A DNA stretch of 64,000 bases from Macrocystis pyrifera (Eukaryota; Sar; Phaeophyceae; Laminariales; Laminariaceae). Below the pieces are notes generated by a model. That model did no database searches. It was not told where the DNA came from and worked only from the letters and a program-made list of their open reading frames with translations. Shown piece after piece: positions 1 to 64,000 of the stretch. How positions within the stretch are numbered: the first letter of the stretch is position 1; every line of letters begins with the position of its first letter. Both the position numbers and the translations under genes were made by a program. Location of the stretch: contig JASSKH010000040.1 in NCBI GenBank assembly GCA_031763025.1, forward strand, positions 2,307,001-2,371,000. Direction: 5' to 3'.

Positions 1-2128
1 GATCTGTGTTGTCACCGATATTTTTGTCGCAGGCGCTCCTTCACCACCTCCTTCCTCGCCATCAACCCTCCATCGCTGCCCCTCACGGCGCTTGCAGTCA
101 ACTGGTCGATAAATATGCTACCCTCTACCCCTATTAATAGGCGCCCAAATATGCTCATAGTATCAAGTAGTGCTGCGCGCAGAGCCACGCCCACCTCTTC
201 GAATAAGCTACAGGTAAAGCCGCAGGTTAGATCTCGTTTACTGGACAATCAGTATTGGTAACTGCAGTCTGTGGGGGGGGGGGAAAACGCAGATCAGACA
301 ATATTTTACCGGTTTTAGTGTGTTTCGGAGTTTCAATGTTAGGGCTGCAGGGTAAATAAAGGTTAAACCCCCCCCCCCCCCCCCGCAAAAAATAAATGGA
401 ACGCTAAAAACCAGTTTGTGCATTGCCTCTTATGAAGGTGTTGCCTACTGAGCTTTAAAGCTAAACGATCGGTTGACTACCCAGCCCACGATAGGCCGTA
501 TAGTATTCTCCCCCCCCTCTGAACGGTGCTCCGTCTCGAAAGGGATAAGTGGTCAATGGTCGAATGACTGAGGCAAGCAACAAATGAGTACGCCCCCCCC
601 CTGATATGAATACACCCCTACCCCCCCCAGGTCCCTCTAAACGGTGGGATCTTTGGGACGTAACGGTACTGTACATGGCCGCACGTGAACCTACCCGGTT
701 CGTTTCAATGCTTGGGGAACCAGGGACCAGGGAGACATGTTTTTAGTGACGCACGCGCAAGCTCGAAGTGAGATTCGAACCCGTGTCCTCGACGACGTTA
801 AGTGTGAGGGAGTTACCTGCTGAGCTATAGGGGTAAAATAGCAATAGATTACCCAGCCCACAATAAGCCTACGTATAACACTTTGACCTGTGGAGGTATC
901 CCACAGGCTCATGTCTTCAACTACGGTAGTTCCGCTTCGTTCACGGGGACCACGCCATGTCGACGCGTTGGAAGCCGCCGCCGACAGAACGCCACTCGGT
1001 GACGTCATGCCGCGCTACGGCAGTAAACGGCAACGTGATCATGCTGTCGGTACTAATGTTTCCGCTTTTTCGAGAGTTAGTCACGTGTATACTCGTACTG
1101 TTTGCTTTTTATGCCTGGTACCTGCCTAGCATCACCTTCCTGGTGTGCCTACCTGCATCGTACTGCGAAGGTTCTAAACCCCTTCCCAACTCCAAAAATG
1201 ATCGTGCTCTTAGGGCCCATCTTAACGGGGAACGCTACATTTCTTTATTTGGAAATTATTTTTTAATTTCAACGAATCTTAATTTGAGTTCGAAAAAAAA
1301 AAACGTGTTTGTATTCTATCGAGGAACGGCGTATTGATTGTCAAACAAGAAATAAATCGGAGTACCTTAAAAAACGCACCGCGTCACACAACGCCCAGCC
1401 GACAAACTGCGACGAGCGTCGACGAGAGCGAAGGCTTGCGTTGTCGCGTGCGCGGCGCCGCCAGCCTCTTTTTTTTTTAGTGGCGCAGGATAGGAACCCA
1501 TCACTCTCAGGGTGTCTTGGGTGGGGGCGGAGGGAGCCCTCAAGCGCGTATATAGAGCATAAGCGCCGGCAAGCTTAACCCTTTTCCAACTCCAAAATAA
1601 TGGTAGGCTAACTTAGAGTGTGGCGTGCCCTTAATGGAGATGCAGTGGTAAAGGGGTTTATTTCGTGCTAGGGTATCATTATACTTCATACACTGCACCT
1701 AGCACAACGCCTGTCCATCAGCGAGGTCAAAAGGGAGAGGTACTGAAGAAAATGCACTTTAAGATTCGACGCTGACCCGAAGCTCAAAGAAAGCTGACGC
1801 GAAGCCCGTACTATGTTTTCTTCAACTCTTCCTGCATTTCCTCCCCCGCTGGTCGACACCTACTGGCGTATGCACTGCCTCGCGAGATAGTCCCGCGCCA
1901 TCTTGAGTTTGCTGGCGGTCATGTAACGAAACAGATTGCCCTATGATAGTGTGGTAGTATGATACATAATAATAGTACAGAGTACTGGCCCGCCAACGAG
2001 CCAACACCTACACATACTACTACTATAATAGTACATACCTGAGCAAGGCTTGAACCTTTCTTGTGGCAACAACCTGGTGCACAGGCTATCATATTACTAT
2101 TATTATGACTATGATTGTTCATATTATT
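1..2128. other. No gene recognised; tRNA-like fragments and G/C runs
   Basis: Short ORFs here have no family resemblance, and several owe their length to homopolymers. The stretch holds C runs near 370-384 and 590-600, a tRNA-like block at 760-834 on the minus strand, and a related A-box fragment near 433-500. A second weak minus-strand tRNA-like B box (GGTTCAAGCC) lies at 2048-2057. Nothing else is supported. Confidence 0.5.
760..834 (-). repeat. tRNA-like sequence, probably a SINE head or tRNA pseudogene
   Basis: Read on the minus strand there is an A box, TAGCTCAGCAGG (827 to 816), that fits TRGCNNAGYNGG exactly. About 45 bases further on is a B box, GGTTCGAATC (781 to 772). The spacing suits a tRNA body, but the T stem and acceptor stem pair poorly, so a working tRNA is unlikely. 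A partial copy of the same head with its flank (TACCCAGCCCAC) lies at about 433-500. Unit 2 carries it at 33094-33168 with one A-box change. Confidence 0.45.
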
Positions 2129-2267
2129 ATTATTTTTACGTATTATTACGTATTATTATTATTAGTAGTATTATTATTAGTATTATTATTAGTATTATTA
2201 TTATTATTAGTATTATTATTATTATTATTATTATTATTATTATTATTATTATTATTATTATTATTAT
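2129..2267 (+). repeat. (TTA)n microsatellite
   Basis: An imperfect ATT/TTA trinucleotide array. The unit 2 copy (34481-34553) is much shorter, so the array is length-variable. Long poly-Leu, Ile or Tyr reading frames through it are artefacts. Confidence 0.95.
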
Positions 2268-2281
2268 GTGCAAAAGCCAGA

Positions 2282-2297
2282 ATCAGGTATACCTGAT
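2282..2297. other. Perfect 16-bp palindrome beside the microsatellite
   Basis: ATCAGGTATACCTGAT is identical to its reverse complement. It follows the (TTA)n array after GTGCAAAAGCCAGA. A second copy of the core CAGGTATACCTG sits at 3439-3464, directly before the next TTA array. Looser half-site copies (GCCAAAATCAGGT) occur near 2305, 2952 and 3012. It could be a bound site or the edge of a mobile element. Function unknown. Confidence 0.6.
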
Positions 2298-61516: not shown

Positions 61517-62035
61517 GTCAGGGGCTGAACGCATGATACTACGACAACTATATAGCTGCAATCTACCATACCCACTCCGTCCCGCAATATAAGGATATTT
61601 TGGATTCAATATTAATATGTAAACGCCACTTATATTTAGGAACAGAACTGTACCTAGTACCACTCTGGACGGAAATGTAAGGACCGTTTTATTTACATTT
61701 TAATGTTTAAACGATCCTTATATTCACGTCCAGATTGGTGTCTATTAACAGATACATTATTAATGGTGCTGCTTGGCTTGCAACGTGGGGGGGGCGCTTT
61801 GGGTGGTTTGATTGCTGGATACTGATTGTTGGGTGCTGAGAGCTGAGGTTTGAGATGAGCTCTTGTGATGGCTCTCAATCGCCGATTCGTCTAACCGATC
61901 CCCTTGTCCCCCGCCAACTGCTGTTTTCAACACACCGCTCGTATGCCATCGTACAGGCTTATTCCATTTTTTTTCTTGTATCGGTGCCTCTGTCTGACTG
62001 TCTGTTCTACTTGGTGTGTTTGTATGCCGCAATAG

Positions 62036-62113
62036 GCGGAGAAGATCCAGCGAGTCGGGCGCCAAATGGCCCAGGACGCCCAGCAAGCCCTCGAGATTGT
62101 CCACCACGAGAAG
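62036..62113 (+). CDS. SNARE-like gene, Qb-motif exon, unit 2
   Basis: Identical to 30440-30517, acceptor AATAG and donor GTGAGAGC retained. Confidence 0.5.
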
Positions 62114-63923
62114 GTGAGAGCGATGGCCGCCAAATTTCAAGCACGATTCTACATGTTTTGGTCAAACTTGGTTGTAAAATACGTGTTCATAATAGGTAAA
62201 CTATTATTAGTGTTAAATATCAGTACTTGGTTGTGTACACACTTGTATCATACACATGATACACCGGCGTCTGGTATGCTGCTTTGCGGCCCCAGTCGAA
62301 CGGATAGCTGACTTTAGCCACCTGTGACCAAAGATTTGTTCAGAGTGCGCTCGAGCGCCACATCTGTGCTTGGCGAGCAGGACTGGAAATTGTAAAGGTA
62401 ATAATGGCCCAAGTATATCATACCGGTACCGTTTATCGTAGCAGTTTGGTTGTTGGTATCAGCATGCTACCGGGAAGAGTAGTATGCGTTTGCTTGTATT
62501 TTTATGATGAAAGGCTACTACTATTATACAATCATTCTCCGCCGAAACACGTGCGACCCATCCATCACTCATCGCTCACACTGTTGGATCTTGTGGATTT
62601 TTAAACCCGTCGTCATCCAGCACCCAGCACGTACAACATCCGCATTGTCCGTGCTGCAGCTGATGTGTTGATTATCTGTCCCTATTGGTGGAGAGATACA
62701 AACCCTGTGGTCATAGTCAGTACTTGGTGCGACACACAAAAGAAACACACCAGGTTCATCGAAAAAAACGCAGATGAGACAACGCAATACCATGCCAAAC
62801 TATTGGATGCGGAGAGCACAACACAATACATTTATACACAGGCCAGCAAGCTACACAGATGCTGGTACATTGAACGAGACAAAGAAAGGGAACAGGTTTA
62901 GAGCAGATGCTGCTGCTGCAGGTCTTAGATCGACCTGGTAGGATGTTGTGAGACAGAGAGTATCGTGCTTGGCGCGTGTCGTACACCTTGGTATCTCCTG
63001 CCTGCCTGCCTTCCTTCCTTCCTTCCTTCCTTCCTTCCTTCCTCCACCTCTTCCTTCTTTTCGTAGCGCAACGGACGCATCCCCTATCCCCTATGCCAGA
63101 GCTGTCCGGGCTATTATACTACAGACGGTAGTAGTATATCATATCATGCTTCGTGTGGCCGATGCCATAATCGTCATTCGTTGGGTTTTACACGGTTTCC
63201 CTCTATACTACAATAGAGTTAACCGAGTCACCGAAGTAGGGTAAAAAAACGGAAGCTGTCTCATGCGTGTGGTGCCAGGTGCTGCACAAGATCGGAGGCA
63301 GGCATGGGCAAGAGTAGGATGAGCACACGTAACAGCAGTCTACGATACTACTCGTAGAATAGTATTTTATGGTGAATGAAACCATTAATAGAGGGCCGCC
63401 ATGCGGTACACTATTAATAGTACTACAGTTATTAATATTACTCTGCTGCATGAGGTATGAGATACAGCACGTGGCTTCGCTCTGCAGCCATCAGCCTCTC
63501 AGCTACTATCGATAATGTATACCGATATATGGTAGATATTATTGCATTTACTTGCCACCCGACTATGTTTAGCATGAGTTTCATACAACGTTGATCACTC
63601 ATGAATATTCCCGGAAAGAAGAAAACCAAGGGAAGCCAAAACAAAGAAGAAGGAAACCTACTGTATGCACAAATCTAGTCCCCTTCTGTACCTACTCCTG
63701 GTTAACCTGTGTGTCTAGAGTCTAGAGTACTCCAATTGCTGTCCTTGCTCCTTGCTTATCGTCACATGCTCCTCTCAGCTTCTGTTCTTCAATCCTAAGA
63801 TGCGCCCATACTCCATCCCCACACCATCAGCGTGGGTCAGTTATCCCCCCCCCGCCGGCTACTTCTCGCTTCCTGGCGATCCCTCAGCTGGAGCTTGAAC
63901 CGCGACATCCTTCGCGAAATAAC
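62114..63923. other. No gene firmly recognised
   Basis: Counterpart of 30518-32327. A frame at 62665-62901 (RFIEKNADETTQYHAKLLD) is open here but stopped in unit 1; it could be a further exon or chance. CTTC array at 63008-63044. Confidence 0.35.
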
Positions 63924-64000
63924 GATCTGTGTTGTCACCGATATGATTTGTCGCAGGCACTCCTTCACCATCTCCTTCCTCGCCATCGACCCTCCATCGC
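63924..64000. repeat. Start of a third tandem unit
   Basis: The last 77 bases repeat the start of units 1 and 2. They share GATATGATTTG, CACCATCTCC and ATCGACCC with unit 2 against unit 1. They read GCAGGCACTCC where unit 2 has GCAGTGTGCTCC. The third unit is therefore not an exact copy of either neighbour. Only this fragment is visible. Confidence 0.85.

Follow-up and report, generated by a model that had tools for sequence, protein, structure and literature searches.

The question raised by this locus is whether a 64,000-nucleotide stretch of the giant kelp (Macrocystis pyrifera) genome, referred to here as the window (C130:2307001-2371000; 50.5% GC), belongs to a real tandem amplification of units of about 32 kb, or whether its repeats were created during assembly. 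Self-BLAST of the window yields a collinear, same-strand diagonal of positions 1-32405 against 32328-64000, made up of four main blocks with identities of 94.5-97.4%, while in a control in which the window was shuffled in two-letter blocks no self-match was found except the full-length one. The collinear tandem units of the original prediction are thus reproduced, with periods of 32,327 and 31,596 bases. As had also been predicted, the units differ by substitutions: end-to-end alignment of the two window units, A and B, comprises 31,489 aligned bases with 619 substitutions (370 transitions and 249 transversions), 93 gaps and 98.0% identity. The same alignment accounts for the 731-base difference in period, which had been ascribed to named events, since 916 gap bases occur in A only and 184 in B only, a net 732 over the aligned extents. 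Sixteen gaps of at least 8 bases make up 844 and 110 of these bases, respectively, and consist of trinucleotide repeats, one 330-base insertion in A, units of a 42-base and a 126-base minisatellite, a G run, one 13-base gap and one 8-base gap. The claim of at least three units in a row is thin from the window, in which the third unit comprises just 77 bases (63924-64000), so that the window alone is compatible with two copies and a short terminal repeat.

This claim is confirmed by the rest of the contig, where period-shifted copies flank the window left and right and continue as far as C130:2386137. The genome that was searched comprises 537,376,219 bases in 223 contigs; C130 is 2,810,005 bases long, and 200 kb of it was read (C130:2230001-2430000), in which there is no N and the order of the units is continuous inside the array. 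Counted from phase 7110, the start of the homogeneous array, the array spans C130:2247375 to 2386137 and contains four complete units and part of another, head to tail on one strand: U1 (33,227 bases), U2 (33,508), U3 (31,774), U4 (31,690) and the partial U5 (8,564). Ahead of U1 there is a diverged module (2236142-2246903) made up of pieces with roughly 76-96% identity to the window, of which two are inverted, and the last copy ends at the phase where the spacer starts. Beyond these ends the sequence is not duplicated, as judged by one probe per flank: the left (2233200-2235500) and right (2386900-2388800) probes each match only themselves in full, the rest among the 40 candidates scored for each being short dispersed repeats. 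With more than three units present in the genome, the copy number, order, orientation and flanks of the array support the segmental tandem amplification that was originally proposed. The features of the window are collected in Table 1.

Table 1. Features of the 64,000-nucleotide window (window positions, with contig positions in brackets).
Feature	Position	Strand	Remarks
End of unit U2	1..7109	+	
Whole unit U3	7110..38883 (C130:2314110-2345883)	+	
Unit U4, first 25.1 kb of 31.7 kb	38884..64000 (C130:2345884 onward)	+	
Core module	27184..45773	+	collinear with C194:7900866-7917090 except 34385-37719
Parts of two further cores	1-14161 and 58756-63998	+	
3.3-kb core stretch missing from C194	34385..37719	+	other unit: 2056-5941
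Spacer between cores	15699..27183	+	probe 20000-21500
Same spacer, next unit	47311..58755	+	
SINE-like insertion, 330 bases	3043..3372 (C130:2310043)	+	in U2 by the phase-7110 count; absent in the other window unit
Ty3-type integrase ORF	23797..24855	+	Integrase_H2C2, E 4.1e-10; Ty3 polyprotein 7q5b, E 4.6e-23
Second copy of Ty3 remnant, next spacer	inside 55207-57208	+	
Gene 1 exon 1 region	29083..29916	+	open frame 29083-29922; start and splice site putative
Gene 1 exon 2	30440..30517	+	boundaries by eye
Gene 1 exon 1 segment, next unit	61097..61519	+	
Gene 2	7285..9559	+	frame changes inside repeats in this copy
Gene 2, next unit	39059..41160	+	frame change too

Each unit consists of a gene-bearing core and a spacer, the latter found at full length on C130 only, and from the unit order cores and spacers alternate, giving five cores and four spacers in the plus-strand array. 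Six more modules, inverted and mostly more diverged, lie at C130 1.83-1.99 Mb, about 245 kb away from the array; this minus cluster was read in short probe segments only. A core probe (window 10000-11500) has 52 matches genome-wide, of which five are plus places at 98-100% and six are minus places at 92-96% (two of them partial) on C130, and one is a place on contig C194 at 85%, the remainder being pieces or short repeats. For the gene 1 exon segment there are 15 matches, namely the five plus and six minus C130 copies (one split), C194 in two parts, and a 39%-identical paralogue on contig C197; the 13 matches of the gene 2 N terminus are the five plus copies, the six minus copies (one split) and C194. 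Three separate probes thus agree on five plus and six minus cores on C130 and one core on C194. The spacer probe gave 17 matches, nine of them short and the full ones (91-100%) comprising four plus and four minus places, all on C130. From these counts, the minus cluster holds six cores and at least four spacers, unevenly spaced. The C194 relative is a single diverged copy of 16 kb, from which 3.3-3.9 kb of the array core is missing; in the 40 kb that was read there, no spacer match was found beside it, bar two short pieces that match the Ty3 part.

Mobile sequences distinguish individual units. The SINE-like insertion of the original prediction is indeed present in one window unit and missing at the matching site of the other, and U1 carries, near phase 2.7 kb (C130:2276186-2276509), another member of this family in inverted orientation and with 96% identity, so that each of the two insertions is peculiar to its own period of the array. 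The element is short, dispersed and present in many near-identical copies, as is characteristic of a SINE: with 40 of 1,099 candidates scored, 42 near-full-length matches of 97-100% were obtained on many contigs. As to a tRNA-derived head, ARAGORN and Rfam gave no hit and promoter-like boxes were recognizable by eye only; no clear target-site duplication was seen by eye. The Ty3-type remnant is a dispersed retrotransposon piece inside the spacer, with copies genome-wide and an integrase domain. No paired LTRs were found around it, as the only direct repeat in window 21500-26600 is the 126-base minisatellite. Its segment is 99-100% alike in the four plus units and in one minus unit, beside the minus core M5, while the remaining 35 of the 40 places scored are 93-95% alike; because these 40 were drawn from 1,741 candidates, other minus units may contain weaker copies.

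The array was originally described as carrying a SNARE-like gene, a label that is not supported. The likeness of gene 1 to SNARE proteins lies in a short coiled-coil-like segment, recognized by eye in a model that covers two exons with splice sites also read by eye. It differs from them in having no SNARE match: none was found among Pfam families, either with the joined exons (E up to 5) or with the C197 paralogue (E up to 10), nor among PDB matches. The SNARE-domain profile PF05739 likewise has no match within either C130 cluster (E up to 10), in a search where exons were read separately and an intron-split domain could escape.

Gene 1 is nevertheless conserved in part. The same exon 2 peptide is encoded in 10 of its 11 C130 copies; between C194 and the window copy, exon 2 differs at 1 of 78 bases, compared with 82 of 479 in the intron, and 28 of the 56 residues in the joined segment recur in the C197 paralogue. 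The near-invariant exon 2 and the residues shared with C197 point to selection acting on a protein. Conversely, a longer stretch of exon 1 has a pN/pS of 0.51-0.63 between the outlying first plus copy, P1, and the others, values between close copies with few changes range from 0 to 1.2 (four of the five plus copies in both comparisons), and a one-base gap interrupts the P3 copy; the pN/pS on this longer stretch and the gap count against such selection.

Gene 2 encodes a coiled-coil-like N terminus followed by 14-residue repeats, which correspond to the 42-base minisatellite, and has no Pfam family at E 0.01, weak sub-threshold matches aside. Its N terminus is free of stops in all 13 matches, and pN/pS between C194 and the five plus copies is 0.39-0.49. 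An unbroken 730-residue frame is present in one of the five plus copies (U2); frame changes occur in the remaining four and in C194. Such changes, like the one-base gap in gene 1, could be expected from decay as well as from polishing error, and since errors in the C-rich repeats are a possible cause, the gene 2 copies are not called pseudogenes. A sliding pN/pS scan of C194 against the array gave 21 windows under 0.4; these fall on both strands and also outside the two genes, and the scan was dropped as evidence of selection. For the remainder of the unit, 229 ORFs of at least 60 residues from the first 33 kb (110 and 119, with an entropy filter; one low-complexity ORF was left out and another added) were compared with Pfam, and at E 0.01 nothing was found beyond Integrase_H2C2 and Baculo_11_kDa, in one ORF each. 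Six further pieces gave sub-threshold Pfam matches only, including a chromodomain at E 0.042, and Rfam found nothing in the window.

The full units U1-U4 differ pairwise by 620-768 substitutions in 31-32 kb, except for U3 and U4 with 590, which corresponds to a divergence of 1.88-2.47% (about 97.5-98.1% alike), and each carries 196-258 private substitutions among the four. In the core probe, divergence is 0.6-2.2% among plus copies and 3.0-13.0% between minus and plus copies. The gene 1 comparison gives 1.6-2.8% among plus copies 2-5, a range that also takes in the minus copy M5 (at 1.8% from P2), and places P1 at 8.9-9.5% from the other plus copies; with M5 inside the plus group and P1 outside it, the history is not one simple expansion. 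In addition, the 243 sites at which U1-U4 split two against two fall into the three possible groupings as 149/63/31 and make up 72 runs, whereas 10,000 shuffles gave a mean of 132 runs and a minimum of 107, with none as low. These mosaic patterns fit exchange between units, and read mixing by the assembler could look alike.

According to PMC10498591, the Macrocystis pyrifera assembly described there has 537 Mb, 223 contigs and 50.37% GC and derives from a single haploid female gametophyte; PacBio reads (mean length 15.8 kb, about 100x) were assembled with Canu and polished with Racon, and 29 contigs were added after scaffolding. If the genome searched is that assembly, the reading in which haplotypes were mis-joined fails. 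Moreover, the divergence between units is more than five times the genome-wide π of the species (0.0035; the same text), which, together with the presumably haploid source, indicates that the copies are probably paralogous and not allelic. The mis-joined haplotypes that the original prediction had offered as an alternative are accordingly rejected, given this presumed source, that divergence and eleven core copies in two orientations. An artefact in the wider sense, in which the assembler strung together a pair of haplotypes or a single repeat, would be favoured by a mean read of about half a unit, by Canu contigs with Racon polishing, and perhaps by C130 being, at a guess, among the contigs added without Hi-C; set against these same copy numbers, orientations and divergence, as well as the private insertions, it appears improbable. 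With reads of this length, Canu may have omitted, inserted or blended units, and the mosaic could stem from that.

A real array with the wrong number of units, near-identical ones having been collapsed or one added, is a possibility of more weight, albeit still an unlikely one. The units are closely alike and longer than the mean read, and the mosaic patterns are readable as read mixing, but the private substitutions of each full unit are in principle enough to separate reads. It is very improbable, by comparison, that the unit is itself a mobile element, such as a giant transposon or integrated virus, inserting in series. The spacer does contain the Ty3-type remnant and dispersed repeats, and one ORF of the 119-ORF set has a weak Baculo_11_kDa match (E 0.0015), which was taken as chance; yet the Ty3 piece is genome-wide and was found in one minus unit only among the 40 places scored, copies of core and spacer are confined to C130 except for C194 and the gene 1 paralogue on C197, and the ORFs hold no other Pfam family. 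The most likely reading remains that a tandem amplification truly took place, confined to this locus and accompanied by an inverted relative that is mostly more diverged, and we regard a local segmental amplification in giant kelp as very probably real on the strength of the assembled sequence.

For such an amplification, we infer the order of events and unequal crossing-over as its cause, as well as any use of the extra gene dosage. The gene-bearing core, of which C194 also holds one diverged copy, would have become multi-copy on C130 together with the spacer that is full-length only there. The cluster of six inverted modules may have come first, and a unit like the Ty3-sharing one of M5 probably seeded the plus-strand array, although later exchange between plus and minus blocks is an alternative to such seeding. 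The plus array would then have grown by unequal crossing-over of neighbours to its present four complete units and part of another, and the units may afterwards have exchanged stretches and gained private changes. Dating of these steps was not relied on: at the mutation rate given for Ectocarpus in PMC10254074 (4.07e-10 per site and generation, with 4.9e-11 and 1.47e-9 as limits), 2% corresponds to about 25 million generations, and the rate comes from another genus, its limits are wide and units may exchange sequence.

Tandem segmental duplications and tandem gene arrays grow by unequal crossing-over with partial homogenization. The C130 array resembles them in its head-to-tail copies, sharp outer ends, small divergence and mosaic sites, and differs in its large, mostly non-coding 32-kb unit and in the inverted cluster. 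The ampliconic regions of sex chromosomes carry gene-bearing modules in both orientations, as C130 does on one contig, where the position of M5 next to P2 at gene 1 may reflect exchange between blocks. A search for sex linkage brought no sign of it: of two sex-marker primers, the first has no match in the genome at one mismatch, and the second has one two-mismatch match, on C200, no more than a reversed control. Tandem arrays in T. brucei are the subject of PMC1855330. No account of the C130 array was found in the part of the literature searched, which leaves most subscription papers outside; the main text of PMC10498591 has no word beginning with "tandem", and where "segmental duplication" occurs alongside Macrocystis pyrifera in the accessible literature, a different gene family is concerned.

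The kind of duplication is well known, and judged by its sequence the C130 example is a large and well-marked tandem array in a brown alga. Rather speculatively, the locus may be ampliconic, its eleven two-gene cores lying in two opposed blocks that still exchange within and between themselves and its gene 1 coiled-coil segment held near-invariant amid diverging surrounding DNA; kelps might then differ in copy number, and with it in the dosage of both genes. The unit-specific insertions and minisatellite lengths would provide markers for copy-number variation in wild and farmed kelps.

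Comparison of the diverged first module, which precedes the array of ~32-kb units on contig C130, with the other modules shows an abrupt rise in identity, from about 82-92% to 98%, at C130:2247375 (phase 7110, the window position from which units are counted). This boundary, which sits immediately upstream of gene 2, resembles an old exchange point. The first module also shares a 0.9-kb stretch (89.6% identity) with C194, the contig with a single diverged core copy. Its position within the core differs between the two, and it is probably a separate insertion.

Sequence features of the array and related loci
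Feature	Location	Strand
SINE-like 330-base family copies	window 3043-3372; C130:2276186-2276509; C194:7927601-7927926	
Gene 1, outermost minus copy, in two parts	C130:1835557-1842836	minus
0.9-kb shared stretch	C130:2241942-2242819; C194:7912359-7913246	
Roughly 500-base repeat, several copies	window 15.7-19 kb; 47.3-50.6 kb	both
42-base minisatellite within gene 2	window 7838-8683; 39612-40287	

With 40 of 1,099 candidates scored, the SINE-like family yielded 42 near-full-length rows at 97-100% identity; it is young and widely dispersed. Its copies lie adjacent to one another at two sites (C221 near 14627031 and C223 near 3527769). An older relative is present in every plus-strand core, and also on C194. 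The roughly 500-base repeat, which looks like a candidate dispersed element, occurs in the right flank of the array as well. Gene 1 is split in its outermost minus-strand copy, with ~5.8 kb between the two parts, as if an insertion had interrupted it.

Tandem Repeats Finder (TRF) counted 20 minisatellite units in the first listed copy of gene 2 versus 16 in the second, and the length of the protein repeat is therefore variable.
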